Below are positions 3,701-62,941 of a DNA stretch of 64,000 nt, in pieces. The position numbers and the translations under genes were made by a program. The notes beneath the pieces are model-generated. The model searched no databases. It saw only the letters and a program-made list of their open reading frames with translations, and was not told the origin of the DNA. How positions within the stretch are numbered: the first letter of the stretch is position 1; each line of letters opens with the position of its first letter. The stretch spans positions 15,762,928-15,826,927 of the forward strand of contig CM037867.1 of the NCBI GenBank assembly GCA_021292105.1, given 5' to 3'. The stretch comes from Anadara kagoshimensis (Eukaryota; Mollusca; Bivalvia; Arcoida; Arcidae).

Positions 3701-6700
3701 AGAAAAAGACACTATAAATAAGGGAACCAAACACAAGCATGAGAAAAAAAGACACTATAAAAAGTGAACCAAACACAAGCATGAGAAAAATACACTATAA
3801 ATAAGTGAACCAAACACAAGCATGAGAAAAAGACAATATAAATAAGTGAACCAAACATAAGCATGAGAAAAAGACACTATAAATAAGTGAACCAAACACA
3901 AGCATGAGAATAAGACAGTATAAATAAGTGAACCAAACACAAATATAAGAAAAAGACGCTATAAATAAGTGAACCAAACGCAAGCATAAGAAAAAGACAC
4001 TTTAAATAAGCGAACCAAACACAAGCACGAGAAAAATACACTATAAATAAGTGAACCAAACACAAGCATGAGAAAAAGACAGTATAAATAAGTGAACCAA
4101 ACACAAGCATGAGAAAAAGACAGTATAAATAAGTGAACCAAACACAGGCATAAGAAAAAGACACTACAAATAAGTGAACCAAACACAAGCATGAGAAAAA
4201 TACACTACAGATTAGTGAACCAAACACAAACATGAGAAAAAGACACTATAAAAAAGGGAACCAAACACAAGCATCAGAAAAAGATACTATAATTAAATGA
4301 ACCAAACACAAGCATAAGAAAAAGACACTATAAATAAGTGAACCAAACACAAACATGAGAAAAAGACACTATAAAAAAGGGAACCAAACACAAGCATCAG
4401 AAAAAGATACTATAAATAAGTGAACCAAACACAAGCATGAGAAAAAGACACTATAAATAAGTGAACCAAACACAAGGATGAGAAAAAGACATTATAAATA
4501 AGTGAACCAAACACAAATATAAGAAAAAGACATTATGAATAAGTGAACCAAACACAAGGATGAGAAAAAGACACTATAAATAAGTGAACCTAACACAAAT
4601 ATAAGAAAAAGACACTATAAATAAGTGAACCAAACACAAATATAAGAAAAAGACACTATAAATAAGTGAACCAAACACAAGCATAAGAAAAAGACAGTAT
4701 AAATAAGTGAACCAAACACAAGCATAAGAAAAAGCCACTATAAATAAGTGAACCAAACACAAGCATAAGAAAAAGACACTACAAATAAGTGAACCAAACA
4801 CAAGCATGAGAAAAAGACGCAATAAATAAGTGAACCAAACACAAGCATGAGAAAAAGACAGTATAAATAAGTGAACCAAACACAAGCATGAGAAATAGAC
4901 ATTATAAATAAGTGAACCAAACACAAGCATGAGAAAAAGACAGTATAAATAAGTGAACCAGACAAAAGCATAAGAAAAAGACACTATAAATAAGTGAACC
5001 AAACACAAGCATGAGAAAAAGACAGTATAAATAAGTGAACCAAACACAAACACGAGAAAAAGACACTATAAATAAGGGAACCAAACACAAGCATGAGAAA
5101 AAAAGACACTATAAAAAGTGAACCAAACACAAGCATGAGAAAAATACACTATAAATAAGTGAACCAAACACAAGCATGAGAAAAAGACAATATAAATAAG
5201 TGAACCAAACATAAGCATGAGAAAAAGACACTATAAATAAGTGAACCAAACACAAGCATGAGAATAAGACAGTATAAATAAGTGAACCAAACACAAATAT
5301 AAGAAAAAGACGCTATAAATAAGTGAACCAAACGCAAGCATAAGAAAAAGACACTTTAAATAAGCGAACCAAACACAAGCACGAGAAAAATACACTATAA
5401 ATAAGTGAACCAAACACAAGCATGAGAAAAAGACAGTATAAATAAGTGAACCAAACACAAGCATGAGAAAAAGACAGTATAAATAAGTGAACCAAACACA
5501 GGCATAAGAAAAAGACACTACAAATAAGTGAACCAAACACAAGCATGAGAAAAATACACTACAGATTAGTGAACCAAACACAAACATGAGAAAAAGACAC
5601 TATAAAAAAAGGGAACCAAACACAAGCATCAGAAAAAGATACTATAATTAAATGAACCAAACACAAGCATAGAAAAAGACACTATAAATAAGTGAACCAA
5701 ACACAAACATGAGAAAAAGACACTATAAAAAAGGGAAACCAAACACAAGCATCAAAAAGATACTATAATTAAATGAACCAAACACAAGCATTAGAAAAAG
5801 ACACTATAAATAAGTGAACCAAACATAAGCATGAGAAAAAGACACTATAAATAAGTGAACCAAACACAAGCATGAGAAAAAGACAATATAAATAAGTGAA
5901 CCAAACATAAGCATGAGAAAAAGACACTATAAATAAGTGAACCAAACACAAGCATGAGAATAAGACAGTATAAATAAGTGAACCAAACACAAATATAAGA
6001 AAAAGACGCTATAAATAAGTGAACCAAACGCAAGCATAAGAAAAAGACACTTTAAATAAGCGAACCAAACACAAGCACGAGAAAAATACACTATAAATAA
6101 GTGAACCAAACACAAGCATGAGAAAAAGACAGTATAAATAAGTGAACCAAACACAAGCATGAGAAAAAGACAGTATAAATAAGTGAACCAAACACAGGCA
6201 TAAGAAAAAGACACTATAAATAAGTGAACCAAACACAAGCATGAGAAAAATACACTACAGATTAGTGAACCAAACACAAACATGAGAAAAAGACACTATA
6301 AAAAAAGGGAACCAAACACAAGCATCAGAAAAAGATACTATAATTAAATGAACCAAACACAAGCATAAGAAAAAGACACTATAAATAAGTGAACCAAACA
6401 CAAACATGAGAAAAAGACACTATAAAAAAGGGAACCAAACACAAGCATCAGAAAAAGATACTATAATTAAATTAACCAAACACAAGCATTAGAAAAAGAC
6501 ACTATAAATAAGTGAACCAAACACAAGCATGAGAAAAAGACTTTATAAATACGTGAACCAAACGCAAGCATTAGAAAAAGACACTATAAATAAGTGAACC
6601 AAACGCAAGCATTAGAAAAAGACACTATAAAAAAGTGAACCAAACGCAAGCATTAGAAAAAGACACTATAAATAAGTGAACCAAACACAAGCATGAGAAA

Positions 6701-23923: not shown

Positions 23924-24342
23924 GAATATTCAAATTTATTTGATTTTTATGGAGATGAAGAGTATTTCATGGCCACTAACAGAGTGATTCCTACAGTAGT
24001 AATTATCTGTATGTAGAGTGAATGATTTGGCGACAGTCTTCTCTCCAGATTTAACAAGTTTCTGCAAAATTTCAAAACTTCATAAGAATTAACCAACAAA
24101 TCAGCAAGCAATGATACCCGTTGGTATACCGATTTTTTGCCATAAAATGGTATTACCAAACACAACAAATACGTTGTCTGTCAAAAATTCCAATATTTTG
24201 TCGATGTTATTTTCAGTATATTTTTGTTTGGAATCCCGATGGTGCTTGGCAAAATAACCAGAATCCAACTGCAATGTATAATGAATTATCCTATCGGGAA
24301 GCTAGGTTTCTGGTGACCAAGGTGTTTGTCATAAAATTCCGT
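23924..24342. other. Unannotated sequence between the foldback and the LINE
   Basis: No coding or repeat signature was recognised. Confidence 0.4.
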
Positions 24343-24500
24343 GCTCCGTAATTTTTTTTTTTTTTATATTTTTTTTATTTTTGTAAAGCAAACATGAAAT
24401 ATCATAATTCTACATAATTGTTATATACATTCATAATACAATATATACAATATACAGATTTTCTGCATGGTTATCAATACATGTAAATAGTGAAAAAAAA

Positions 24501-27500
24501 TTAAATTAGAACACTGTAAATATATTTCCAAAACCTATCAAAAATTTCCAATTTTCCCAAATTGCTTAATCTTATTCTTTCTAATGCTATATTATAGTTC
24601 AATTTTGTTTTTAAACTGTTAAAATTTAATTTGCTATCATTTGATCTGGCGTTGTATATATAATTTCTTACTAGGATAAATATGAAGTTTAAAGGTTTTA
24701 ATTTTTCCGAAATGTATGGGTTACCGAAAATAGCCGTTTTAGGATTTATTTCTAAATTTATTCCATTATTTTCAAATAAATTTTCTAATTTCTCCCAAAG
24801 ATTATAAACATGTTGACACTCCCAAAACAAATGTACTATATTTTCCGCAAATGTGTTACAAAATTTACATTTATCATCTGTTCTTATTCCAATTTTTTTC
24901 AGATAACTATTTGTTGCTAAAATGTTATTATTTATTCTATACTGAAACCATTGGAGATAAGTATTTTTGGTTGTATAAAAAGGTATACTATTGTAAATTT
25001 TCCATTCTTTATCTCCAATGTTAAACTCTGATTTCCATTTTATTTCACTTGTCTGTATTTTGTTTGTCTTAATTAAACATAAGTACATGTCTTTAGCGCC
25101 TTTTTTAGATTTAAAAATTATTTTTAAGTGAAACGGTATAAACGGGTTTATTGTTTTAATGTTGTTGGGGTGTATCTTAAGTGTTTTTATATACTCTTTA
25201 ATTGAATTTATAAGACTTTTATACTCTAGAAAATTTGTTTTGATGTTGTATTTTAGTTTAAAAGTTTCATAATTCAGTAATTGTTGGTTTTCATCTATTA
25301 AATCTTTTATGAAAACGATATTATTTTTCAAATATTCTTTATAAAGTATTGTTTCATTGTTTATTTTTATTTTATATTACACATATGCACGAAGATTCAA
25401 TGTCGTTCCAGTTTTGAGGACTGATTTTTATTTGTAAAATAGACCATGCTTCCAAAACATCTTTCCAAAATGTATTTTTATTATGTATTTTCTTATTTAA
25501 ATATCCACTCCCATAGTGGCAATGTCATTACTTTGAAAATTAAAACTTCTAGATAACCTTAAACATTTAGAATCACTTTGTAAGAGTCTTCGTATCCAGG
25601 TCATTTTTAAGGCTTTGATGAAAGATGTAAGATCGATCATTTTTAACCCTCCCTTCTGATAATTTTGAATTATTATATCTCTTTTGATTCTGTCAATTTT
25701 ATTGTTCCAGATAAAGTCATAAAATAAAGTGTTTAATTTATATATTAACTCATTTGTAGGATTAGGTAAACTTATGAATAAGTGATTGAATTTTGAAATA
25801 ACAAGCGATTTTATTAAAGTAATTTTACCGAGTGGTGTCAAACTTCTCGTTTTCCATATTTGAATTAATTTTTTGCTTGTTTAACTTTTCCATCATAGTT
25901 TAAAGATATCATTTTATCTAAATCTACATGAAATTTTATTCCTAATAAAGTAAAAGTATGTCCCCACTCCAGTTTTAATCGATGATTAAATGTTTCTCCA
26001 GAAAATTTTTTGCAACCTATCCAAACTGTTTTACATTTATTTATATTGGTATTCAATCCAGAAATGTTGGCAAAGAAATTTAAAGTTTTTAAAGATTCAT
26101 CTATAGATTTATAAGACCCATCTAAAATAAGAGATGTGTCATCAGCAAATTGTGAAATTTTAAATTCTTCTTTATTTATTGTAATACCTTTGATTTCTTT
26201 ATTATTTTTTATCATAATACTTAGTATTTCGGCACATATTAAAAAAAGGTAACTTGAAATTGGGTCCCCTTGTCTCACTCCCCTGCCTACCGCAAAAAAT
26301 TCTGAGACAATGTTGTTTTGCACTACTGCAGAAGAAATATTTGTATATAAGATTTTTATCCATCTTTTAATAGACTCCCCAAAATTGAAAAAATCAAGAA
26401 CCTCGAATAAAAAATCCCACGATACCGAATCATATGCTTTTTGAAAATCAATCAAATATAACATACCAGGTATGTTATGGTTTCAGTATATGTCATTATA
26501 TCAGCGATTAGCCTAATATTTTCAGCTATGTGTCTACCACTTAAAAAACCAGTTTGGTCCTCTGATATTATTTTATTTAAGACAGATTTAAAACGCTCTG
26601 CTATACAACCAGAAGCTATTTTATATACAACATTTAGTAAAGTGATCGGTCTCCAGTTTTGTAAATATTCTCTCGGCTTATCTCCTTTGGGTATACACAT
26701 AATAATTCCTTGTTTCTGAGTTATAGACAATTCCCCCTTTATGTAACCTTCATTTATTGACCTTAGTACATATATTCCCAAATCTTTCCAAAAAATTTAA
26801 AAAATTCTACCGTAAACCCATCAGACCCCGGACTCTTGTTATTTTTCATTTTCTTTAATACAGACAATACTTCATTATTACTTATTTCTCCTCCAGTTTT
26901 AAATTGTCATTTTGGTTTAGTTTATTTATATCTATCAGTTTAAATTCATTTTTTAAATCTATTTTTTCTGTCTTTTTTTCTTCATAGAGTTTTGCATAAA
27001 ATGATTTAACTTCATTAAGAATTTCTTTTTGATTAGTTATTTCGTTTCCACTTTTATCTATTAGTCTACTAATCGTTTTATTTTCGAAATTATGATTTTC
27101 CAAATTAAGAAAGTATTTATTTGGTTTTTCCCCTTCCTCGATCCACTGCACTCTTGATCTTATTATACTACCTTTTAATTTTTCATTTCTAACGGTTTCC
27201 AAATTTTCTTTTAAATCCTGCAACACCGATAGGTCTTCTTGGTTTAAATTATTTTTATTTTCTAACTTTAATATTTGATTTTTTAAATTAGTTTCTACTT
27301 TATTTTTTTCCTTTTTAATGAAAGATGAGTGTGCAATACATTTTCCTCGGATTTCCATTAAAAGTGTTTCTAGGAATAGTTGGTCAGATATTGTAAACTG
27401 TATATTATCTATATTATTTAAATTATCTAAGTTATATAAAGGTACCATGTATTGTTTAACAGTATCTTTTATACATCGTTTAATTTTATCAATGAACACC

Positions 27501-28300
27501 TGATCGCGTAATAAGTTGGCGTTAAATTTCCAAAGGCCCCTACCCTTAACAAAATTATTTGGCTTAGAGACAAGATTACCATAGAATGATCCGACCTATA
27601 ACTGGGTTCAATTTGAACTTTACATACTTGATTAAATATACTGTCACTTATTAGAAAAAAGTCCAATCTAGATTGTTTAAGAGGTTTACTTCTTCTCCAT
27701 GTATACCTTTTTAAATTAGGATACAGTTTTCTAAAAGGATCAGTCAAATTGTACGTATCTTTAATTTCCAAAACCTTTTTTCTAGCCCTTGGGTTATTTA
27801 TATTTTTATATATCCATATCAAGATCAGGTTCTTGTATCAAATTAAAATCTCCACATATAATATTTGTTGTGCAACTAAGTGTCTCTATATGTCTAACTA
27901 ATTTTGTATAAAAATCAGGTGAATCATTATTAGGGCCATATAAATTCAGTAAATTAAATCTGAAATTATTCATTTCTACATCTAATATTAAAAAATTACC
28001 ATCGGTATCTGTTATTTCTTTATGTATTTTAACATCTGAACCCTTTTGAAAAAGAATACAAACACCCCTAGCGTTTGATGTATATGCGGAAAAAAATTTT
28101 ACCATCCCATTGACTTTTACTGTATTTTCAATTGCACTCGAAAAATGTACATCTTGTAAGCAATAAATATGACAATTCATATCTTTAAGGTAACTAAAAA
28201 CATCGTGCCGTTTCTTAAAATCGGATAAACCTCTACAATTATAAGACAATATTCTAATTACAGTGTCAAACGTTTTATCATCGCTTTTATCTACACTCAT
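24501..28300 (-). pseudogene. LINE ORF2 (endonuclease + reverse transcriptase), frameshifted
   Basis: Read in order: 28300-27806 EEP endonuclease start (ILSYNCRGL, YCLQDVHFS, IICGDFNLI); 27822-27469 endonuclease end (KQSRLDFFLIS, YRSDHSMV); 27499-26882 linker (RVQWIEEGEKPNKYFLNLE); 26781-26452 RT fingers (NWRPITLLNVVYKIA, DQTGFLSGRHI); 26464-25865 RT palm (LIDFQKAYDSVSW, GVRQGDPIS, QFADDTSLI); 25841-25497 thumb; 25331-24501 C-terminal region with CKFCNTFAENIVHLFWEC. Adjacent pieces lie in different frames or are separated by stops, so at least six indels are needed to restore one frame. The usual Glu of the LQE motif is Asp. Non-functional as it stands; indels fall in A/T runs, so some could be sequencing errors. 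Confidence 0.85.
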
Positions 28301-28434
28301 GATTTAAATGATATAATAACAATGCGTTGTAATATATAACAAAAACTTATACATATAATCTACATGCAGTATGAAAGATAACTTATTTACAAAAATACAA
28401 CTACGTATTTGACTATTCATGTTTGCTTGCATTA

Positions 28435-28479
<45 letters not shown>

Positions 28480-29571
28480 TGGAAGTGGAAGAATTGTATT
28501 AACAATAAGGTGTTGCTAATACAGGCGCCTTTCCCTAGAATAACGGGATACATTAAGTATTTGATAGTGTGCTTATATACAAGTAAAATATCTATACAAA
28601 CAAAATCATGTCATTTCGGCCGCAAGGATAACATAACAAAGGGTAAATCAGTTAATACTTGATACAAGTATTACAGTAAGTATTACTTATTATATAACCT
28701 ATTATGATATACGCGTACTTCAAGAAAACAATAAATGTATACATATACCTATATACATACACTTGTGTGCGCGAGTGTATGTGTGTGAGTGCGCGTATGT
28801 GTATGTGTGCGCGCATTTCGGGCCGATATTACTCTATCCTTTTTTGTGTAGTACTATCTTTTGTATGTGCAAATTTTGAATATTTACAAAATAGTACAAA
28901 AGTAGCACATAACAATTATGATAGATAAATTGATATTTGTATATGAAGAGGAGAAAAAAACAATATTAAAAAACCGCAACGTACATGTGCGCGCGCATTT
29001 CGGGCCGATATTACTCTATCCTTTTTACTATCTTTTGTATGTGCAAATTTTGAATATTTACAAAATAGTACAAAAGTAGCACATAACAATTATGATAGAT
29101 AAATTGATATTTGTATATGAAGAGGGGAAAAACAATATTAAAAAACCAACGTACATGTGCGCGCGCATTTCGGGCCGATATTACTCTATCCTTTTTAGTG
29201 TAGTACTATCTTTTGTATGTGCAAATTTTGAATATTTACAAAATAGTACAAAAGTAGCACATAACAATTATGATAGATAAATTGATAGTTGCATATGAAG
29301 AGGGAAAAAAGTATATAAGGAATATACAAAATAATGTATAATAGCGCTTGCACTTAGTGTCTATGCAATGTATTTTCCGGGATTATAAGTCACTTGTACT
29401 GTTATGATCAACTCAGATACATGTATTATTACTAAACATTGTACATCATAAGTGTATTACAGAATACAAATAATAGCATAATAATTCTAAAAAGTATAAT
29501 ACACATTTATATGAGAGAAAAAAAACGCGCATAGACACAGTACAAGAACCAGAAGAAGGGTAAGATAGCAC

Positions 29572-29604
<33 letters not shown>

Positions 29605-29692
29605 CTTTTAAAGCATCATAAATAAGTATAAATATATATTTTTACATAAGTAGTACAAAGTTTCAATTTGTGAATACTGTGTATCATTGTGT
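28301..29692 (-). other. LINE spacer between ORF1 and ORF2
   Basis: 1.39 kb without a coding signature. Holds a (GA)n tract at 28436-28474, alternating purine-pyrimidine sequence near 28755-28812, three large tandem repeats (28814-29310) and an (AT)n run at 29572-29600. Confidence 0.6.
28814..29310. repeat. Three tandem copies of a 170-182-bp repeat inside the LINE spacer
   Basis: Copies start at 28814, 28996 and 29166. Each has CATTTCGGGCCGATATTACT, TTTTGTATGTGCAAATTTTG, AAAATAGTACAAAAGTAGCA and ATAACAATTATGATAGATAA. The copies are nearly identical, suggesting recent duplication. Confidence 0.9.
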
Positions 29693-30952
29693 CTATAGTT
29701 GTGTTATCAGATTTTGGACGATGTCTTGCATGTAAGCAAAACGCTTTGGACCTAACCTCCTGTGGCTAGCCTTTCGGGTAATTACTGCCGCAAAGTTGTC
29801 CATTGTATATTGTCTCATATGATTTATTAATTGTCGTCCTGCTCCGATCTCTCCATCATCATCAAATCCTTCGTGTAATTGTCCACTCTGGTCGTAAAAT
29901 CTGTACACTACAATATTGTGTGTCGCACTCGCGTTTACAGGATTTTGCAAGATCATTTTGCTGAAATTCCTAATGTCATTGAAACATGACACTTTAGTAC
30001 CGCTGCCCCAAAACTCGTTTCCTGCGTCAATAATCGGTTTTGCCGTTACACATGGAATTTTTTCCAACAGCTGTCGTTCCGGTTCTTCCGTGTTCAATAT
30101 CTGTTCAGCTTTTGGTGTTTTGACCTTATCTCTGTATACGGACCCATTTTCAAAAACAAGCTTGTTACCAAGAACACGCGTTTTTACATTCTGTTCGTTA
30201 TAGGTTTTTTGTAGATCGTACAACATTCGACGTCGTTCTAATACTTCTGTTGGTGATTGTGGTGTAAGGTGAAATGAAAATTTTGACCCGTTATCTTTCT
30301 TTGTTTTATATGTTTGTAACACGTTTTCTTTTTTGGTATAATCTGCTAATCTAGCAACAATTGTACGTGTTTTATTGTTTGAGAATGGACCTATGCGATG
30401 TATTCTGTCTATCTGTATATCAGTCATTTCTAACTCTTTTTCTAATGTCGTTCTCATATCCATGTATAATTTCTCCCCCTTTTTCTCCTGATATCCATGT
30501 ATTAGGATATTATTTCGCATTGACCTACCTTTTAAATCTAACAACTGCTTAGATTGTTGTGTAACGGTTCTATCTAGCTTAATTATAATAGCCGTCATTA
30601 AGTTAATCTCCTTTCGTAACTTTATATTTTCTGCTTTAATGGTAGTCATGTCGGACAGAGTATCGTCTGCTTGATGTGAAAATAGTTGAAGTCTTTCATC
30701 AACCCCGTCCTTACCCCAAATATCTTCTCTTAACCCTTTCATTTCAAATTCCATTTCATCTACTTTTTCTAATTTTTTGTTAATGTCTTTTAAAGTTTGT
30801 GATATTATAGGTAAAGCTGATAGTGCTTTACTCACCTCTTCCATGTTTACATTTTGTTCAGGTGTAGCCATTGTATGTGAATATATACTGTCTTCCTGCT
30901 CGTTTTCACTTATTTTTCTTTTTGCATAGGCTCTTCTTTCGTTCAATGACAT
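29693..30952 (-). CDS. LINE ORF1 protein with C-terminal IMPACT/UPF0029-like domain
   Basis: 419 residues, intact from ATG to stop. Residues about 40-140 are heptad-rich (coiled coil for trimerisation). Residues about 143-215 contain RSMRNNILIHGYQEKKGEKL and TRTIVARLADYTKKENVL, the L1 ORF1p RNA-recognition fold. Residues about 220-280 (FSFHLTPQSPTEVLERRRML) match the ORF1p C-terminal domain that binds nucleic acid. Residues 311-419 are extra: GSGTKVSCF, ATHNIVVYRF (343-352), GFDDDGEIGAGRQLINHM (362-379) and VITRKASHRRLGPKRF (390-405). This order matches the IMPACT/YigZ family (ATHN..AYR, DDGE..AG..LL, VV.R..GG..LGP.RF). The usual aromatic-Gly-Gly after the Arg is KASH here. Function of the extra domain is unknown; IMPACT/YIH1 proteins act on translation control through GCN1, but that is mediated by a separate RWD domain not present here. 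Confidence 0.85.
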   Translation of the reverse strand: MSLNERRAYAKRKISENEQEDSIYSHTMATPEQNVNMEEVSKALSALPIISQTLKDINKKLEKVDEMEFEMKGLREDIWGKDGVDERLQLFSHQADDTLSDMTTIKAENIKLRKEINLMTAIIIKLDRTVTQQSKQLLDLKGRSMRNNILIHGYQEKKGEKLYMDMRTTLEKELEMTDIQIDRIHRIGPFSNNKTRTIVARLADYTKKENVLQTYKTKKDNGSKFSFHLTPQSPTEVLERRRMLYDLQKTYNEQNVKTRVLGNKLVFENGSVYRDKVKTPKAEQILNTEEPERQLLEKIPCVTAKPIIDAGNEFWGSGTKVSCFNDIRNFSKMILQNPVNASATHNIVVYRFYDQSGQLHEGFDDDGEIGAGRQLINHMRQYTMDNFAAVITRKASHRRLGPKRFAYMQDIVQNLITQL

Positions 30953-31119
30953 AATTACCGTCCATTCAATGCAATATCATGTTATAAGCACCATCCATCT
31001 TCAGAATTCCATAAACTTACATGTATACCCACTATTACAAGGGAAAAAACCTGGAGGTGATTAAAACCGCCTGAGTGTTATGAGCGCCATATTTAACTCC
31101 TTAATTAAGCTCCGTAATT

Positions 31120-32765: not shown

Positions 32766-35700
32766 TTATGGTTTGAAATGGAATAGTATGTGTGTTTTTG
32801 GTTTGCTTTTGGATTGTGATTTGGACATGGAATAGTATGTTTGTTATTGCTTTGCTTTTTGGATTGTGATTTGGACATGGAATAGTATGTTTGTTATTGC
32901 TTTGCTTTTTTGATTGTGATTTGGACATGGAATGTATGTTTGTTTTTTCTTTGCTTTTGGATTGTGATTTGGACATGGAATAGTATGTTTGTTTTTGCTT
33001 TGCTTTTGGATGGTGATTTCGGCATGGAATAGTATGTTTGTTTTTGCTTTGCTTTTAGATTGTGACTTGGACATGGAATAGTATGTTTGTTTTTTCTTTG
33101 CTTTTTTGATTGTGATTTGGGCATGGAATAGTTTGTTTGTTTTTGCTTTGCTTTTTTGATTGTGATTTCGGCATAGAATAGTATGTTTGTTTTTGCTTTG
33201 CTTTTGGATTGTGATTTGGACATGGACCGGTATGTTTGTTTTTGCTTTGCTTTTAGATTGTGACTTGGACATGGAATAGTATGTTTGTTTTTGCTTTGCT
33301 TTTGGATTGTGATTTGAACATGGAATAGTATGTTTGTTTTTTCGTTGCTTTTGGATGGTGATTTGGACATGGAATAGTATGTTTGTTTTTTCTTTGCTTT
33401 TGGATTGTGACTTGGACATGGAATAGTATGTTTGTTTTTTCTTTGCTTTTTTGATTGTGATTTGGACATAGAATAGTATGTTTGTTTTTTCTTTGCTTTT
33501 GGATTGTGATTTGGACATGGACCGGTATGTTTGTTTTTGCTTTGCTTTTAGATTGTGACTTGGACATGGAATAGTATGTTTGTTTTTGCTTTGCTTTTGG
33601 ATTGTGATTTGAACATGGAATAGTATGTTTGTTTTTTCGTTGCTTTTGGATGGTGATTTGGACATGGAATAGTATGTTTGTTTTTTCGTTGCTTTTGGAT
33701 GGTGATTTGGACATGGAATAGTATGTTTGTTTTTGCTTTGCTTTTAGATTGTGACTTAGACATAGAATAGTATGTTTGTTTTTTCTTTGCTTTTTTGATT
33801 GTGATTTGGGCATGGAATAGTATGTTTGTTTTTGCTTTGCTTTTGGATGGTGATTTCGGCATGGAATAGTATGTTTGTTTTTGCTTTGCTTTTTTGATTG
33901 TGATTTCGGCATGGAATAGTATGTTTGTTTTTGCTTTGCTTTTTTGATTGTGATTTCGGCATAGAATAGTATGTTTGTTTTTGCTTTGCTTTTTTGATTG
34001 TGATTTCGGCATGGAATAGTATGTTTGTTTTTGCTTTGCTTTTTTGATTGTGATTTGGGCATGGAATAGTATGTTTGTTTTTGCTTTGCTTTTTTGATTG
34101 TGATTTCGGCATAGAATAGTATGTTTGTTTTTGCTTTGCTTTTTTGATTGTGATTTGGGCATGGAATAGTATGTTTGTTTTTGCTTTGCTTTTGGTTTGT
34201 GATTTGAACATGGAATAGTATGTTTGATTTTCTTTGCTTTTGGATGGTGATTTGGACATGGAATAGTATGTTTGTGTTTTCTTTGCTTTTGGATGGTGAT
34301 TTGGACATAGAATAGTATGTTTGTTTTTGCTTTGCTTTCTGATTGTGACTTCGACATGAAATAGTATGTTTGATTTTTCTTTGCTTTTTGATTGTGATTT
34401 GGACATGGAATAGTATGTTTGTTTTTGCTTTGCTTTTGGATTTATATTTGGACATGGAATAGTATGTTTGTTTTTACTTTGCTTTTCTATTGATATTTGG
34501 ACATGAAATAGTATGTTTGTTTTTGATTTGCTTTTGGATTGTGATTTGGACATGGAATCGTATGTTTGTTTTTGATTTGCTTTTGGATTGATATTTGGAC
34601 ATGGAATAGTATGTTTGATTTTGCTTTGCTTTTGGACTGTGATTTTGACATGGAATAGTATGTTTGTTTTTGCTTTGCTATAGTATTGTGATTTGGACAT
34701 GGAATAGTATGTTTTTTTTTTTTGCTTTTGGATTGTGATTTGGACATGGAATAGTATGTTTGTTTTTGCTTTGTTTTTGGACTGTGATTTGGACATGGAA
34801 TAGTATCTTTGTTTTTGCTTTGCTTTAGTATTGTGATTTGGACATGAAATAGTATGTCTGTTTTTGCTTTGCTTTTGGATTGTGATTTCGACATGGAATA
34901 GTATGTTTGTTTTTGCTTTGCTTTTGTATTGTGATTTGGACATGGAATTTCTATGTTTGTTTTTGCTTTGGTTTTGGTCAGTGATTTGGATATGAAATAG
35001 TATGTTTGTTTTTGCTTTGCTTTTGTATTGTGATTTGGACATGGAGTTTCTATGTTTGTTTTTGCTTTGCTTTTGGACTGTGATTTGGCCATGGAGTTTC
35101 TATGTTTGTTTTTGCTTTGCTTTTGGATTGTGATTTGGACATGAAATAGTATGTTTGTTTTTGCTTTGCTTTTGGACTGTGATTTGGACATGGAGTTTCT
35201 ATGTTTTTTTTGCTTTGCTTTTGGACTGTGATTTGGACATGGAGTTTCTATGTTTGTTTTTGCTTCGCTTTTGTGTTGTGGTTTCGACATGGAATAGTAT
35301 GTTTGTTTTTGCTTTGCTTTTGTATTGTGATTTCGACATGGAATAGTATGTTTGTTTTTGCTTTGCTTTTGTATTGTGATTTGGACATGGAGTTTCTATG
35401 TTTGTTTTTGCTTTGCTTTTGGATTGTGATTTGGACATGGAGTTTCTATGTTTGTTTTTTGCTTTGCTTTTGGACTGTGATTTGGACATAAAATAGTATG
35501 TTTGTTTTTGCTTTGCTTTTGTATTCTGATTTGGACATGGAGTTTCTATGATTGTTTTTGCTTCGCTTTTGTATTGTGATTTCGACATGGAATAGTATGT
35601 TTGTTTTTGTTTTGCTTTTGTATTGTGATTTCGACATGGAATAGTATGTTTGTTTTTGCTTTGCTTTTGTATTGTGATTTGAACATGGAGTTTCTATGTT

Positions 35701-36815
35701 TGTTTTTGCTTTGCTTTTGTATTGTGATTTGGACATGGAGTTTCTATGTTTGTTTTTGCTTTGCTTTTGGACTGTGATTTGGACATGGAGTTTCTATGTT
35801 TGTTTTTACTTTGCTTTTGTATTGTGATTTGGACATGAAATAGTATGTTTGTTTTTGCTTTGTTTTTGTATTTTGATTTGGACATGGAGTTTCTATGTTT
35901 GTTTTTGCTTTGCTTTTGGACTGTGATTTGGACATGGAGTTTCTATGTTTGTTTTTGCTTTGCTTTTGGACTGTGATTTGGACATGGAGTTTCTATGTTT
36001 GTTTTTGCTTTGATTTTGGATTATGACTTGGACATGAAATAGTATGTTTGTTTTTGCTTTGCTTTTGTATTGTGATTTGGACATGGAGTTTCTATGTTTG
36101 TTTTTGCTTTGGTTTTGGACTGTGATTTGGACATGGAGTTTCTATGTTTGTTTCTGCTTTGCTTTTGGATTGTGATTTGGACATGAAATAGTATGTTTGT
36201 TTTTGCTTTTTATTTGGACTGTGATTTGGACATGGGGTTTCTATGTTTGTTTTTGCTTTGCTTTTGTAATGTGATTTGCACATGGAGTTTCTATGTTTGT
36301 TTTTGCTTCGCTTTTGTATTGTGATTTCGACATGGAATAGTATGTTTGTTTTTGCTTTGCTTTTGTATTGTGATTTCGTCATGGAATAGTATGTTTGTTT
36401 TTGCTTTGCTTTTGTATTGTGATTTGAACATGGAGTTTCTATGTTTGTTTTTGCTTTGCTTTTGGATTGTGATTTGGACATGAAATAGTATGTTTGTTTT
36501 TGCTTTGCTTTTCGATTGTGATTTGGACATGGAATAGTATGTTTGTTTTTGCTTTGTTTTTTGACTGTGATTTGGACATGGAGTTTCTATGTTTGTTTTT
36601 GCTTTGCGTTTGTATTGTGATTTCGACATGGAATAGTATGTTTGTTTTTGCTTTGTTTTTGTATTGTGATTTCGACATTGAATAGCATGTTTGTTTTTGC
36701 TTTGCTTTTGTATTGTGATTTGGACATGAAATAGTATGTTTGTTTTTGCTTTGCTTTTGGACTGTGATTTGGACATGGAGTTTCTATGATTGTTTTTCCT
36801 TTGCTCTTGGATTAT
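32766..36815. repeat. 49-bp satellite array 1, about 82 copies
   Basis: Unit GGAATAGTATGTTTGTTTTT, GCTTTGCTTTTGGATTGTGA, TTTGGACAT. A second 50-bp variant replaces AATAGTATG by GTTTCTATG and is interspersed mainly at 35.0-36.8 kb. Stop-free frames on both strands here are artefacts of the repeat. Confidence 0.95.
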
Positions 36816-40282: not shown

Positions 40283-40469
40283 CAGTAAAACCTCGATTCA
40301 TCGCCACCATTTGTTCAGTCAAATTTTGGCGTTATAAAGGGGTTTGGCGATAAATCGGGGGAGGCCGATAAAGAAAAACATAAACAAAATGGATTTTGGT
40401 ACTTCAAAATAGAGTGGCGTTAAGCGAGGTGGGAAAGTTATCGAGGGGCATTATAACTAGGTTTTACTG
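40283..40469. mobile_element. 187-bp pogo/Tigger-like non-autonomous element
   Basis: Starts CAGTAAAACCTCGATTCATC and ends AACTAGGTTTTACTG, flanked by TA on both sides. The same site is uninterrupted in units 1 and 3 (GGAATAGTATGTGTG). No coding sequence. Confidence 0.9.
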
Positions 40470-42770
40470 TAGTATGTGTGTTTTTGGTTTGCTTTTGGAT
40501 TGTGATTTGGACATAGAATAGTATGTTTGTTATTGCTTTGCTTTTGGATTGTGATTTGGACATGGAATAGTATTTGTGTTTTGGGTTTGCTTTTGGATTG
40601 TGATTTGGACGTGGAATAGTATGTTTGCTTTTTGCTTTGCTTTTGGATGGTGATTTGGGCATGGAATAGTATGTTTGTTTTTGCTTTGCTTTTAGATTGT
40701 GACTTGGACATAGAATAGTATGTTTGTTTTTTCTTTGCTTTTGGATTGTGATTTGGACATGGAATGTATGTTTGTTTTTTTCTTTGCTTTTGGATTGTGA
40801 TTTGGACATGGAATAGTATGTTTATTTTTTCTTTGCTTTTGGATGGTGATTTGGACATGGAATAGTATGTTTGTTTTTGTTTTGCTTTTGGATTGTGACT
40901 TGGACATGAAATAGTATGTTTGTTTTTTCTTTGCTTTTTGATTGTGATTTGGACATAGAATAGTATGTTTGTTTTTTCTTTGCTTTTGGATTGTGATTTG
41001 GACATGGAATAGTATGTTTGTTTTTGCTTTGCTTTTAGAATGTGACTTGGACATGAAATAGTATGTTTGTTTTTTCTTTGCTTTTGGATTGTGATTTGGG
41101 CATGGAATAGTATGTTTGTTTTTTCTTTGCTTTTTTGATTGTGATTTGGACATAGAATAGTATGTTTGTTTTTTCTTTGCTTTTGGATTGTGATTTGGAC
41201 ATGGAATGTATGTTTGTTTTTTTCTTTGCTTTTGGATTGTGATTTGGACATGGAATAGTATGTTTATTTTTTCTTTGCTTTTGGATGGTGATTTGGACAT
41301 GGAATAGTATGTTTGTTTTTGTTTTGCTTTTGGATTGTGACTTGGACATGAAATAGTATGTTTGTTTTTTCTTTGCTTTTTGATTGTGATTTGGACATAG
41401 AATAGTATGTTTGTTTTTTCTTTGCTTTTGGATTGTGATTTGGACATGGAATAGTATGTTTGTTTTTGCTTTGCTTTTAGAATGTGACTTGGACATGAAA
41501 TAGTATGTTTGTTTTTTCTTTGCTTTTTGATTGTGATTTGGACATAGAATAGTATGTTTGTTTTTTCTTTGCTTTTGGATTGTGATTTGGACATGGAATA
41601 GTATGTTTCTTTTTGCTTTGCTTTTGGATTTATATTTGGACATGGAATAGTATGTTTGTTTTTTCTTTGCTTTTGGATTGTCATTTGGACATGGAATAGT
41701 ATGTTTGTTTTTACTTTGCTTTTCTATTGATATTTGGACATAGAATAGTATGTTTGTTTTTGATTTGCTTTTGGATTGTGATTTGGACATGGAATAGTAT
41801 GTTTGTTTTTGCTTTGCTTTTGTATTGATATTTCAACATGGAATAGTATGTTAGTTTTTGCTTTGCTTTTGGATTGTGATTTGGACATGGAATAGTATGT
41901 TTGATTTTGCTTTGCTTTTGGGCTGTGCTTTGGACATGGAATAGTATGTTTGTTTTTGCTTTGCTATAGTTTTGTGATTTGGACATGGAATAGTATGTTG
42001 TTTTTTTTTGCTGTTGGATTGTGATTTGGACATGGAATAGTATGTAAGTTTTTGCTTCCTTTTTGGACTGTGATTTGGACATGGAATAGTATGTTTGTTT
42101 TTGCTTTGCTTTTGGATTGTGATTTTGACATGGAATAGTATGTTTGTTTTTGCTTTGCTTTTCTATTTTGATTTCGACATGGAATAGTTTGTTTGTTTTT
42201 GCTTTGCTTTTAGACTGTGATTTGGACATGGAATTTCTATGTTTGTTTTTCCTTTGCTTTTGGACTGTGATTTGGACATGGAATAGTTTGTTTGTTTTTC
42301 CTTTGCTTTTGGACTGTGATTTGGACATGAAATTTCTATGTTTGTTTTTCCTTTGCTTTTGGACTGTGATTTAGACATGGAATTTCTATGTTTGTTTTTC
42401 CTTTGCTTTTGGGCTGTGATTTGGACATGGAATAGTATGTTTGTTTTTGCTTTGCTTTTGTATTGTGATTTCGACATGGAATAGTTTGTTTGTTTTTGCT
42501 TTGCTTTTGTATTTTGATTTCGACATGGAATAGTTTGTTTGTTTTTCCTTTGCTTTTGGACTGTGCTTTGGACATGGAATAGTATGTTTGTTTTTGCTTT
42601 GCTTTTGGACTGTGATTTGGACATGGAATAGTATGTTTGTTTTTGCTTTGCTTTTGGACTGTGATTTGGACATGGAATAGTATGTTTGTTTTTGCTTTGC
42701 TTTTGGACTGTGATTTGGACATGGAGTTTCTATGTTTGTTTTTGCTTTGCTCTTGGATTATTATTAGTAT
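40470..42770. repeat. 49-bp satellite array 2, about 47 copies
   Basis: Same unit as array 1, with more TTTTTTCTTTGC variants at the left and GGACTGTG variants at the right. Confidence 0.95.
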
Positions 42771-43038
42771 GCTTTTTATTAGTTAAGAAATGATTATGAA
42801 ACCAGAACAAGTATGAGTCCATGCAATTATGCATGTCACTTTAACATCTAGTCAAACAAAATAGCTTGTTTATTTTTTTAATATTTGGATTTTAAATTAA
42901 GATTTAATTTCCATAAATACGAACACTTAGAAATAACTGTGTATTATTATATCATTTGAGTATTATTTATATTTTTAAGTGAAACACTCAAAATACTTAT
43001 TTAAACAGGGGAGAGGGATTTCTCTTACCACTTTAGAT

Positions 43039-44391
43039 ATACAGTACAGACCTGTCGAAAGTTTAACACTAAGCTAACAAATCAATCGGCAGCTCATCTC
43101 GAGTGCTCATTACCTCTATCTCGGCAGCTTCTCGGCAGCAACTATCAATACATCTCGACAGCTTTTCAGCAGTGAATATCAATATATCTGGACAGCTTTT
43201 CGGCAGCGGCTATCAATATATCTGGACAGCTTTTCGGCAGCGGCTATCAATATATCTCGGCAGCTTTTCAGCAGTGGCTATCAATATATCTCGACAGCTT
43301 TTCGGCAGCGGCTATCAATATATGTCGACAGCTTTTCAGCAGCGGCTATCAATATATCTCGACAGCTTTTCAGCAGTGGCTATCAATATATCTCGACAGC
43401 TTTTCAGCAGCGGCTATCAATATATCTCGACAGCTTTTCGCAGCGGCTATCAATATATCTCGACAGCTTTTCATATCAATATATCGATAGCTTTTCGGCA
43501 GCAGCTATCAGTATATCATGACAGGTGTTCGGCAGCGGTTATCAATATCTCGACAGCTTTTCGGCAGCGGCTATCAATATATCTCGACAGCTTTTCGGCA
43601 GCGGCTATCAATATATCTCGACAGCTTTTCAGCAGTGGCTATCAATATATCTCGACAGCTTTTCGGCAGCGGCTATCAATATATCTCGACAGCTTTTCAG
43701 CAGCGGCTATCAATATATCTCGACAGCTTTTCAGCAGTGGCTATCAATATATATCGATAGCTTTTCGGCAGCATCTATCAGTATATCATGACAGGTGTTC
43801 GGCAGCGGTTATCAATATATTTCGACAGCTTTTCGGCAGCGGCTATCAATATAAAATTATCTTGGCAGTTTTTCGGCAGCGGCTATTAATATATCTCGAC
43901 AGCTTTTCGGCAGCTACTATCCATATATCTCGACAGCTTTTCGGCAGCGTCTATCAATATATCTCGATAGCTTTTCGGCAGTAGCCATCAATATAGCTTG
44001 GAAGCTTTTCGGCAGTGGCCATCATTATATCTCGATAGCTTTTCGACAGTGGCCATCAATATAGCTTGGAAGCTTTTCGGCAGTGGCCATCAATATATCT
44101 CGATAGCTTTTCGGCAGTGGCCATCAATATATCTCGATAGCTTTTCGGCAGCGGCTATCAATATATCTCGCAAGGTTTTTGGCAGCGGCTAACAATATAT
44201 CTGGGAAGCTTTTCGCCAGCGGCTATAAATATATCTCGATAGCTTTTTGGCAGCGGCTATCAATAAATCTCGAGAGCTTTTTAGCAGCGGCTATCAATAT
44301 ATCTTGGAAAGTTTTTGACCGGCAGCTATCCGTATCTCCTCTTCTCAGCAGTCGACCTCGGTGTCGAACTTTCGACAGGTCTGTACAGTAT
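43039..44391. mobile_element. Form B element, copy 2, with 34-bp array
   Basis: Same ends as copy 1. About 36 units between 43,093 and 44,335; some are truncated (43,440-43,500) or altered to CATCAATATAGCTTGGAAGC. Confidence 0.85.
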
Positions 44392-44524
44392 TTTTACGGA
44401 AACTGCTAAATATAACAACGATGTTAATTTAAAGTGGGGGAATAAAGGCCAATTCATCTTCACTCGATCTTTTTGACATATATGGGTTTAACGTTTTTAA
44501 AGTCCTACAAACCCTATGTGTAGT

Positions 44525-44585
<61 letters not shown>

Positions 44586-44878
44586 GTAGTCGTTACTTGG
44601 CTAACAGATGAAAACACGATAACACTCATTTTAAGGGCAATTACTTCACAACTGTATACATGGTATAACAAATAGATAGCATGTTCGTAAATTTCTTCTT
44701 TTTTTTGCACTACATCAAATTTCTTTGTTAAAACACGAAAAGTGAATAGAAATTCATCAAATTGAAACACTTTGTTTTAAAACTGTTGACTCAATAATGA
44801 TTTGCTAATTTTCATTGGTGCTTTAAATGTATGACAGTCTCTTATTAAATAAATTAAGCTTCAATTAACTGGTTCCAG

Positions 44879-45134
44879 GCCCCAGTTTCACGATCATTCC
44901 TTAGCTAAGATTTTCCTTAACTTGAATCATGCAAAATTTCAAAACGTTATAATTTTGTTTATTTTAAAGATAGTCAGGAAATTAAGCTGTCATTTTAAAG
45001 GTAGCTGCTAGATTAAAGCATTAGCATTTAGTTTTTACAAAAATATTCATCAGTATTTCCAAAAAAGGATTACCAAAATTGGCTAAATTTAAGTTAAGGA
45101 AAATCTTAGCTAAGAAATGATTGTGAAACTGATG
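44879..45134. mobile_element. CCCAGTTTCAC element, copy in unit 3
   Basis: Same insertion point as in unit 2, CCAG at 44875-44878 and 45135-45138. The right end has changed (AAACTGATG instead of AAACTGGGA). Confidence 0.85.
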
Positions 45135-45544
45135 CCAGATGTTATAAGCTTTAAAAAATCTTCAAAATGACCCCTTAAAGTCATAAATATCTTAAAAACT
45201 AGCAAAATCATCAGGATTTTAAATAAGACAGATTTAAGTAAAGGAGTACACGAAATAATTTAGTGAGGGAATGATTGTGAACTTGTGCCATGACAAGAAG
45301 TATTTCATCTATCTCAATCATGAATGCCACATCGACATTTAGTCCCAACAAAGAGCTTGTTTATTGTTTTAAAATTTGGACTTTGAATTTAAATTAATTT
45401 TCCATAAATACGAACATCTACCAATACAAAATTTAACTGTGAATTATTGTATCATTTAAGTATTATTTATATTTTTAAGTGAAACACTCAAAATTATACA
45501 ATGTATTTATTAAAACGGGGAGGGATTATTTTACAACTGTAAAT

Positions 45545-45765
45545 ATACAGTACATATCTGTTGAGAGTTTAACAATAAGCTAACGTATTCATGCCGGATC
45601 GCCAGTTCAAAGCGACTATATATATTTAAACAGCATTTTGGCAGCTGCTATATATCTATCGGTACCTTTTTGGCTTATAGCTATCCATATAACTGTCACT
45701 CGGCAGCCGAACTCTGACTTGTTTTAGTTAAGGCGTGTTAAACTTCCGACAGGTCTGTACAGTAT
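45545..45765. mobile_element. Inverted-repeat element, short form A, copy 3
   Basis: Same structure as 32204-32422 with a few substitutions. Confidence 0.75.
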
Positions 45766-45898
45766 TTTCACGGAAACTGTTACATATAGCAACGATGTTA
45801 ATTTAAAGTAGGGGGAATAAAGCCCCATTCATCTTCACACGATCTTTTTGACATATATGGGTTTAGCGTTAATAAAATCCTACAATGTGTATATGTAA

Positions 45899-45941
<43 letters not shown>

Positions 45942-46019
45942 TGGTGTCTTCACTTGGCTAACAGATGAAAAACGATAACGATAATTGTAGATTCCAGATT
46001 TAAGTTAAGGAAAACAATC

Positions 46020-46110
46020 CGGAGCACTCGGTCTCGCTTCCCTGATGGAAGTTTGCGTGTTAAACTTTATTTGCCAGTTTGAAACTATTTATTTTGCTTT
46101 GGGTATGGTT
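46020..46110 (-). repeat. Element M remnant at the edge of 49-bp array 3
   Basis: GGAGCACTCGGTCTCGCTTC, CCTGATGGAAGTTTGCGTGT and TGCCAGTTTGAAACTATTTA precede the array. Confidence 0.75.
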
Positions 46111-47765
46111 TGGAAATGGAATAGTATGTGTGTTTTTGGTTTGCTTTTGGATTGTGATTTGGACATAGAATAGTATGTTTGTTATTGCTTTGCTTTTGGA
46201 TTGTAATTGGGACATAGAATAGTATGTTTGTTATTGCTTTGCTTTAGTATTGTGATTTGGACATGGAATAGTTTGTTGTTTTTTTTTGCTTTTGGATTGT
46301 GATTTGGACATGGAATAGTATGTGTGTTTTTGGTTTGCTTTTGGATTGTGATTTGGACATGAAATAGTATGTTTGTTATTGCTTTGCTTTTGGATTGTGA
46401 TTTGGACATGGAATAGTATGTGTGTTTTTGCTTTGCCTTTGGATTGTGATTTGGACATGGAATAGTATGAGTGTTTTTGCTTTGCTTTTGGATTGTGATT
46501 TGGACATGAAATAGTATGTTGTTTTTTTTTGCTTTTGGATTGTGATTTTAACATAGAATAGTACGTTTGTTATTGCTTTGCATTTGGATTGTGATTTGGA
46601 CATGGAATAGTATGTGTGTTTTTGGTTTGCTTTTGTATTGATATTTGGACATAGAATAGTATGTGTGTTTTTGGTTTGCTTTTGGATTGTGATTTGGACA
46701 TAGAATTGTATGTTTGTTATTGCTTTGCTTTTGGATTGTGATTTGGACATGGAATAGTATGTGTGTTTTTGGTTTGCTTTTGGATTGTGATCTGTACATG
46801 GAATAGTATGTGTGTTTTTGGTTTGCTTTTGGATTGTGATTTGGACATGGAATAGTATGTTGTTTTTGGTTTGCTTTTGGATTGTGATTTTAACATAGAA
46901 TAGTATGTTTGTTTTTGGTTTGCTTTTGGATTGTGATTTGGACATGGAATTGTATGTTTGTTATTGCTTTGCTTTTGGATTGTGATTTGGACATGGAATA
47001 GTATGTGTGTTTTTGGTTTGTTTTTGGATTGTGATTTGGACATGGAATAGTATGTTTGTTATTGCTTTGCTTTTGGACTGTGATTTGGACATGGAATAGT
47101 ATGTTTGTTTTTGCTTTGCTTTTGGACTGTGATTTGGACATGGAATAGCATGTTTGTTTTTGCTTTGCTTTTAGACTGTGATTTGGACATGGAATAGTAT
47201 CGTTTTTTGCTTTGCTTTTAGGCTGTGATTTGGACATGGAATAGTATGGTTTTTTGCTTTGCTTTTAGGATGTGATTTGGACATAGAATTGTATGTTTGT
47301 TATTGCTTTGCTTTTGGACTGTGATTTGGACATGGAATAGTATGTTTGTTTGTGCTTTGCTTTTGGATTGTGATTTGGCATGGAATAGTATGTGTGTTTT
47401 TGGTTTGTTTTTGGACTGTGATTTCGACATGGAGTTTCTATGTTTGTTATTGCTTTGCTTTTGGACTGTGATTTGGACATGGAATAGTATGTTTGTTTTT
47501 GCTTTGCTTTTGGACTGTGATTTGGACATGGAATAGTATGAGTGTTTTTGCTTTGCTTTTGGATTGTGATTTGGACATGGAATAGTATGTTTGTTTTTGC
47601 TTTGCTTTTGGACTGTGATTTCGACATGGAATACTATGTTTGTTTTTGCTTTGCTTTTGGATTGTGATTATTTCGACATGGAATAGTATGTTTGTTTTTG
47701 CTTTGCTTTTGGATTGTGATTTGGACATGGAATTTCTATGTTTGTTTTTGCTTTGCTCTTGGATT
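46111..47765. repeat. 49-bp satellite array 3, about 33 copies
   Basis: Same unit; many copies carry GTGTGTTTTTGGTTTGC and GTTATTGCTTTGC variants that are rare in arrays 1 and 2. Confidence 0.95.
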
Positions 47766-62260: not shown

Positions 62261-62879
62261 TTAACAAAAATTGCTTTGTGACGTATTGAGTGCGAGGGTG
62301 GTCTCCATTTATCCGGGTTTGAGATTATTTCACAACATTTGATTTTTGGACATAGTTGAAGAAATCAGAGTTTCTCGGAGAAGCGGCGAGCGAAATTAAA
62401 AAAAATCTCAGACGAGAGTTTCGATCCAGTGGGATGAACGCAGAGACCTGTAATATAAATACAAAGTGAACAATGATTAAATTGTTTTACTTTCAATTCC
62501 GTTTGTCAGATGATAAATATAAACAAATGAATTTTAGAAGCAGTCTATACTTGGGGTAGCGCAAAATTTCGGGGTGTGTTAATCATGGGAAGGGGTTGTC
62601 GGATTTGCAGCTGGTCCTTACCTGTGAACTTGAGAGTTCGGTTTTCCGGAGAAAACCACCCGCGATTTTCGGTAATATTTTAAAAATATAATGTTCCTAA
62701 ATATATTTTGATCCAGGCCATCAAGTTTATACCTAAGAAAAAAAATTAAGAGTTCATTGATCCGGTCGGGGTCTTGTTGTATACACTACATACTAAAAAC
62801 CAAAATCTTAAAAATATTCAAATCAGTCCAACAATACTGTCGTGTGCTGCTTTTGAATGTTTATGTATTATACACTGTA

Positions 62880-62941
62880 ATTGTCATGTGCTACTTTTGA
62901 ATGTATTATTTCATAAAAATTCAAAAGTAGCACATGACAAT
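62880..62941. repeat. Perfect 23-bp inverted repeat, 16-bp loop
   Basis: ATTGTCATGTGCTACTTTTG, AAT and its exact inverse. The arm sequence AAAAGTAGCACATGACAAT is nearly the same as AAAAGTAGCACATAACAAT in each LINE spacer repeat. Confidence 0.85.

Follow-up and report, generated by a model that had tools for sequence, protein, structure and literature searches.

The window analysed here is a 64,000-nucleotide stretch of the genome of the bivalve Anadara kagoshimensis, and its minus strand carries a LINE whose first open reading frame, stop-free over 419 aa, ends in a UPF0029 domain of the IMPACT/YigZ type. The parts of this element are as follows.

31109..31119, minus strand: 5' copy of the target-site duplication, AATTACGGAGC, with TT before it; an 11-bp exact match to the sequence past the A-tail
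30953..31108, minus strand: 5' untranslated region of the element, 156 bases, from the duplication to the ORF1 ATG
29693..30952, minus strand: ORF1, 419 aa, with an N-terminus, a coiled coil at ~31-142, an RRM/CTD-like part at ~134-300 and a UPF0029 part at 301-419
29711..30016, minus strand: UPF0029 (IMPACT/YigZ ancient) domain, residues 313-414; PF01205 E 1.9e-12
28301..29692, minus strand: ORF1-ORF2 spacer, ~1.39 kb, with a 178-bp tandem repeat at 28803-29310 and TA and GA repeats
24501..28300, minus strand: ORF2 with 8 frame changes; recognizable pieces are the endonuclease (27806-28300), RT (25865-26464) and zf-RVT (24501-25331)
24354..24382, minus strand: A-rich 3' tail
24343..24353, minus strand: 3' copy of the target-site duplication, an 11-bp exact match

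LINEs prefer to insert at TT/AA, and the element displays the features of target-primed reverse transcription, namely an A-tail, a target-site duplication and a TT/AATTACGGAGC site that resembles TT/AA. When both strands were scanned, AATTACGGAGC occurred at exactly two places in the window, and a comparable duplication match arose in 9 of 20000 trials on a Markov background; the same script also returned two other 11-base matches, both AT-rich and well away from the start of ORF1. Because the 11-bp duplication brackets ORF1, spacer, ORF2 and A-tail, we conclude that the stretch 31108-24354 most likely derives from a single reverse-transcribed RNA that already carried the fusion when it was inserted. 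Two separate insertions are rejected, since the duplication flanks the entire unit. Neither these element boundaries nor two further features, the length of the ORF1-ORF2 spacers and an apparent swapping of ORF1 cassettes described below, had been noticed when the locus was first read from its sequence alone (hereafter the sequence-only reading).

In the window ORF2, Pfam returned Exo_endo_phos at 22.1 bits (below its cut-off of 24.5), RVT_1 at E 1.3e-20 and zf-RVT at E 8.6e-8. The solved RTs nearest to the window RT include LINE-1 ORF2 protein entries at E ~2e-20; the highest-ranked one, 8c8j, bears the name RNA-directed DNA polymerase. With its AP endonuclease and an RT nearest L1, ORF2 appears to be of the L1 superfamily type, a placement made by the closest solved RTs. 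Its 8 frame changes were read from the open pieces, and as adjacent pieces overlap or abut, no added stop codon is needed. An intact ORF1 beside a frameshifted ORF2 had been pointed out earlier, and that contrast is real; as evidence of selection in the window copy it is weak, given that a 1260-bp ORF1 would stay intact beside such an ORF2 with P 0.07 when breaks are counted per base and 0.14 when counted per homopolymer run. For 8 frameshifts to accumulate without a single stop, P is 0.01-0.15, varying with the substitution rate assumed. We have therefore dropped this contrast as a proof of selection (P 0.07).

The spacer is also long elsewhere, measuring ~1.0-1.25 kb in four other loci (L063, L067, L086 and L088) and ~0.5-0.6 kb in L077. 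With 30 ATGs in the window spacer, ribosomes are unlikely to arrive at ORF2 by scanning alone. A 63-bp stretch of the 178-bp spacer repeat recurs at 62878-62940 with 81% identity. Downstream of the element, the minus-strand flank at 24001-24301 has no Pfam match, and we take it to read as a Penelope-like RT fragment. No Rfam families or tRNAs were found in the window. Large tandem arrays occupy 32844-36776 and 40457-46945 (minus), 37260-59127 (plus) and 2935-5053 (minus), and their repeats remain open in long frames of MSKSQSKSKAKTNILFHV-, SFSAAAINISRQLFGSGYQY- and VFGSLIYSVFF-like type, which are probably not genes.

The sequence-only reading had recognized IMPACT-family motifs at the C-terminus of ORF1 and suggested a PF01205 search of the domain; that search was significant, and the window ORF1 scored 47.5 bits versus a curated cut-off of 27, UPF0029 being the sole Pfam family over its cut-off in the 419-aa protein. 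Searched by itself, the UPF0029 part matched PF01205 at E 1.5e-13, and of NCBIfam only TIGR00257 matched the window, weakly and far below its cut-off. The best solved relative is 6bqi, a 'Protein IMPACT homolog' that we take to be fungal, with E 0.001 for the whole ORF and 2.4e-4 for the domain. Alignments with 6bqi, 2cve, 1vi7 and 32 ORF1s of the family show that the H, DDGE and LG motifs of UPF0029 are present. The R[WY][FY]GG loop of 6bqi, 2cve and 1vi7 reads RKASHRR in the window ORF1; this loop is taken as typical from five sequences (6bqi, 2cve, 1vi7, and the genomic loci L120 and L158), and membership rests on the profile score.

Ahead of the domain, residues 31-142 show a heptad periodicity (9 of 11 overlapping windows at p<0.05, uncorrected; p 0.027 over residues 39-146 as a whole). 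An L1-type CTD had been proposed to precede the domain. From the window copy alone this could not be demonstrated, as Transposase_22 gave no match to the window protein in Pfam at E<=10; two of the 32 aligned family members matched Transposase_22 only at E 0.1 or worse. The profile of the family did bear it out: the 32-ORF1 profile matched LINE-1 ORF1P (2ykp at E 1.8e-7 and 2yko at E 2.6e-7, profile positions 94-260) with IMPACT placed after it, and also matched 2ldy and 2w7a (E 1.9e-5) and 6fia (E 0.021), so that the family profile has the coiled coil, RRM and CTD of an L1-type (type II) ORF1.

Profile and protein searches covered one genome of 1,115,223,567 bases in 36 contigs. In the ORF1 search, scoring of the best 100 among 941 candidates listed 101 matches at identities of 31-100%, one of them being the window copy; 75 of the 101 extend to residue 405 or beyond, and 35 are stop-free from residue 63 or earlier to residue 405 or later. 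Since the query included the domain and scoring was confined to the best candidates, these counts are biased toward domain-bearing copies, and the genome counts are lower bounds. A UPF0029 profile search scored the best 150 of 275 candidates, all 150 of which exceeded the cut-off; the top match (L120, on contig C22) is a bacterial-type YigZ with no LINE, and most of the other 149 were counted by profile score without individual reading.

An alignment of 32 open ORF1s, comprising the window and 31 relatives, was drawn from 50 loci (L060-L109), its members being chosen for open frames and in part for the domain. A regular expression requiring the domain motif yielded 21 open frames and the longest ORF 12 more; L060 (the window itself), L087 (interrupted) and 17 loci without a single open frame were dropped, 19 of the 31 relatives were thereby selected using the domain motif, and three members (L096, L101 and L108) start late in the alignment. 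UPF0029 was detected in 32 of 32 (E<=1, best 4.4e-22), down to ~30% identity. In a less selected test, which drew ten loci from the 26 of 101 matches that end before residue 405, UPF0029 coding lay directly downstream in nine, mostly in a shifted frame and in one (L113) over only 38 aa. The tenth, L114 (C15:57449450-57451300), is an ORF1 relative with no detectable UPF0029 and an endonuclease frame ~0.5 kb downstream, which we read as a deletion derivative or a domain-losing lineage. The fusion, first noted in a single copy, is thus a trait of a family in this genome, and the domain's distribution refutes a lone fusion in the window copy.

Within the alignment E368, G401, R404 and F405 never vary, and H345 hardly does. 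The R..GG loop is full in 1 of 32 and reads R..SG in nine more, leaving 22 without R..[GS]G; two extra copies, L121 and L122, retain RWYGG. Across 15 between-subfamily pairs UPF0029 has pN 0.12-0.40 versus pS 0.67-0.93, its silent sites being saturated in 13 pairs and near saturation in the other two (dN/dS 0.09 and 0.33). This comparison among copies, one of the checks suggested for the locus, points to purifying selection on the domain. RRM-CTD in the same pairs has pN 0.14-0.42 with silent sites saturated in 15 of 15. Nine close pairs have dS of 0 to 0.04, and these copies are therefore young. Taken together, the distribution and substitution patterns make us highly confident that the fusion is widespread in the genome and under purifying selection.

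The two parts of the protein also appear to share a history. On average, pairs of ORF1s share an identity of 0.41 in UPF0029 and 0.42 in RRM-CTD, and across 496 pairs the two values correlate at r 0.92. Trees built for each domain from 19 representatives of the 32 ORF1s share an identical split of nine versus ten (support 100/100 and 91/93) with differences within the clades. The correlation and the shared split therefore argue for one old fusion, inherited jointly. Were the fusion a matter of chance, a host IMPACT exon or retrocopy would have come to lie behind ORF1 in the window copy alone, and the third positions of the UPF0029 stretch do differ from the rest of ORF1 (A 0.34 versus 0.47, p 0.018; GC 0.39 versus 0.29, p 0.049). 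We nevertheless regard this as vanishingly improbable in view of the domain's presence in every aligned copy and the congruence of the RRM-CTD and UPF0029 trees; moreover, a host-like IMPACT exon in this genome (L158) begins inside the domain, after a splice-acceptor-like TTTTCAG, and keeps RWYGG.

As to where the domain of this old fusion came from, the family profile matched 6bqi at E 1.4e-19 versus E 0.0065 and 0.069 for the bacterial 2cve and 1vi7, and the acidic loop from DGE to AG has two residues in the family and in 6bqi versus four in 2cve, L120 and 1vi7. A bacterial origin was rejected, the bacterial matches being weaker. The earlier proposal that a LINE had captured a host gene is thereby upheld to the extent that profile E value and loop length point to a eukaryotic, IMPACT-like source in preference to a bacterial one, and we infer that a spliced eukaryotic IMPACT-like sequence was probably captured by the element, host IMPACT being represented in this comparison by one exon. 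That exon is found at both L158 (C19:28009780) and L159 (C19:29488200), 1.48 Mb apart and with identical translated residues, a pair that we read as a gene or assembly duplication. The YigZ at L120 (C22:147631-147939) carries SDDGEPSGTAG and RYYGG and has a tRNA-Trp ~0.3 kb away; we suspect that C22 entered the assembly as a contig of a bacterial symbiont or contaminant. Searches of plasmids and phages by tblastn gave E 2 or worse, and a scan of a genome-contig collection gave 12 pattern matches and no relative. In viral contigs the DDDGE pattern occurred at 59 loci, with a best UPF tblastn of E 0.003, and in a protein scan one IMG/VR stretch, given without a locus, encoded an ORF1 relative.

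The association of this ORF1 with an ORF2 extends beyond the window. In a linkage test on the best 150 of 275 UPF0029 candidates and the best 150 of 4504 RT candidates, 38 of the 150 UPF0029 matches had a same-strand RT 1.5-7 kb downstream, 34 of the 38 at 2.9-3.9 kb, and none of the 150 had one of these RTs within 7 kb in any other arrangement. An endonuclease was found in the 1.5-kb flank of 16 of 30 loci, using a profile built from these same loci, some of which overlap and one of which (L060) is the window. The suggestion to look for RT near such fusions thus proved fruitful in this genome. Among the matches listed, 22 RTs had an open frame of at least 1200 aa, nine of them with an ORF1 or UPF0029 match upstream; in contrast to the broken window ORF2, RT matches elsewhere sit in open frames of ~1270 aa, and copies with both frames open exist in the genome.

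The pairing of the two frames is not constant. Five copies (L063, L086, L088, L080 and L091) have RTs that are 93-98% identical in protein and 92-98% in DNA, whereas their ORF1s are 34-59% identical, RRM-CTD and UPF0029 alike; silent differences run at pS 0.09-0.30 in RT and 0.70-0.87 in ORF1. Of eight RTs fetched, one (L168) was omitted as a sister of L164. In four of the seven RT-ORF1 pairs (L063, L086, L088 and L106) both come from one copy; in L080, L091 and L103 the RT is from another copy assigned to the same subfamily. The pairing is secure for L063, L086 and L088 because a single uninterrupted locus contains both ORF1 and the beginning of ORF2. At four loci the DNA similarity between such elements sets in 190-324 bp upstream of the ORF2 start codon, within the spacer. 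For the window copy, the RT is nearest L106 (69%, versus 62% to L063) while the ORF1 is nearest L063 (61%); RT data reject a grouping of window and L063 (p 1.7e-62) and ORF1 data reject window with L106 (p 3e-8), the groups for these tree tests having been named after the identities were known.

ORF1 is often the faster-evolving frame in LINEs, and rapid ORF1 change on a young ORF2, with no exchange at all, might be invoked to explain the discordance. We think this very improbable: ORF1 silent sites are saturated while those of RT differ at just 0.09-0.30, the DNA similarity starts ahead of ORF2 within the spacer, and the window-L063 grouping that the ORF1 tree supports is rejected by the RT tree. 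The data instead suggest that ORF1 with its UPF0029 domain has very probably passed as a cassette from one ORF2 lineage to another, the joins being located in the spacer. Such exchange is strongly indicated and clearest among the five copies; the window copy is a weaker case, because RT data do not reject its placement in a clade with the five (p 0.16). For Jockey-group LINEs, the accessible portion of PMC4120745 proposes reticulate ORF1 evolution by 5'-truncated insertion between ORF1 and ORF2, a route that a long spacer would favour.

The fold of UPF0029 proteins is of a nucleic-acid-binding type that resembles ribosomal proteins. The explanation that we favour as a whole, and hold to be probable, is that an L1-like LINE ORF1 (coiled coil, RRM and CTD) gained a C-terminal UPF0029 domain long ago from a eukaryotic IMPACT-like gene, and that the captured domain would now be a working part of the ORF1 ribonucleoprotein of an exchanged cassette. 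As a more tentative mechanism, the domain may add a second surface contacting nucleic acid or ribosomes, which would help to package the element RNA or keep it translated, ORF2 beyond the spacer included; that ORF1p aids ORF2 translation past the spacer is a guess. The kept H345, E368, G401, R404 and F405, together with the altered R..GG loop, suggest a binding surface that has been changed but retained, although the ancestral activity of the domain may have been lost, given a full loop in a single aligned member.

A passive role would make the domain a fold that serves solubility, trimer packing or decoying of host restriction, with cassettes turning over as host factors come to recognize ORF1p. 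The loop missing from 22 of 32 ORF1s and the strong divergence of ORF1 compared with ORF2 would both fit such a role; against it, the H, E and G..RF positions are invariant or almost so, which speaks for a binding surface that has been maintained, and the pN of UPF0029 is level with that of RRM-CTD across the 15 pairs. We consider a passive fold unlikely, if credible. Although speculative, the retained-surface reading can be pushed further, to a swappable translation or RNP cassette in which the domain would tether element RNA to ribosomes and so enable ORF2 translation across a spacer of 0.5-1.4 kb, with ORF2 lineages swapping cassettes by spacer joins, perhaps in an arms race with ORF1p-sensing host factors; in this full form we regard the idea as quite doubtful.

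It had also been implied that the domain acts through the GCN1/GCN2 axis. Like IMPACT, it would then act on this stress pathway, so that translation continues while the element retrotransposes; the family name and the IMPACT match are in favour of this reading. In Yih1, however, it is the RWD domain that competes for Gcn1, according to the accessible portion of PMC7140605, and RWD was neither matched in the window protein (Pfam, E<=10) nor among the best 25 of 71 Pfam families for the 32-ORF1 alignment. Because RWD was not found, GCN1/GCN2 action is unlikely, indeed improbable in our judgement, and ribosome contact is not simply transferable from IMPACT. The function of the ancient domain of Yih1/IMPACT is described as unknown in the accessible portions of PMC7140605 and PMC4503747.

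Domain gain by a LINE ORF1 is already known, and the UPF0029/IMPACT instance is new to the literature searched. The impression in the sequence-only reading that this fusion was undescribed has stood, in that the open-access literature, among the matches listed, contained no paper linking UPF0029 or IMPACT to a LINE ORF1; UPF0029 does not occur in the accessible text of PMC4120745, nor does any word starting with UPF in that of a bivalve LINE survey (PMC10294476). The fusion extends the short list of LINE ORF1 domains with a translation-linked family, and the genome serves as a natural collection of ORF1-UPF0029 proteins that have diverged strongly, in some cases on near-identical ORF2s. Two questions thereby become testable: what the IMPACT/YigZ ancient domain binds, and how freely LINE ORF1s are exchanged.

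Compared with known systems, the family resembles L1-type (type II) ORF1p in its coiled coil and its profile matches to 2ykp, 2yko, 2ldy and 2w7a, and differs in carrying ~120 further C-terminal residues, which are UPF0029. CR1/L2 ORF1s carry an esterase or PHD domain (PMC3905857 and PMC4120745, accessible portions), and so likewise have an extra domain in a LINE ORF1 that has been proposed to move between ORF2 lineages, but the domains and the LINE clades are different. In TRAS LINEs of Lepidoptera, as far as the accessible portion of PMC5563155 describes them, a non-LTR element has also gained a domain, in that case a captured helicase of viral origin within ORF2. With bacterial YigZ the LINE domain shares the UPF0029 core and its H and DDGE motifs, and differs in its weaker profile matches to 2cve and 1vi7 and in the longer acidic loop of 2cve and L120. 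Finally, it is like IMPACT/YIH1 in being a C-terminal ancient domain with the two residues between DGE and AG seen in 6bqi, and unlike them in being fused to an ORF1, intronless, without a detected RWD, and with the R..GG loop unaltered in only 1 of 32 copies.
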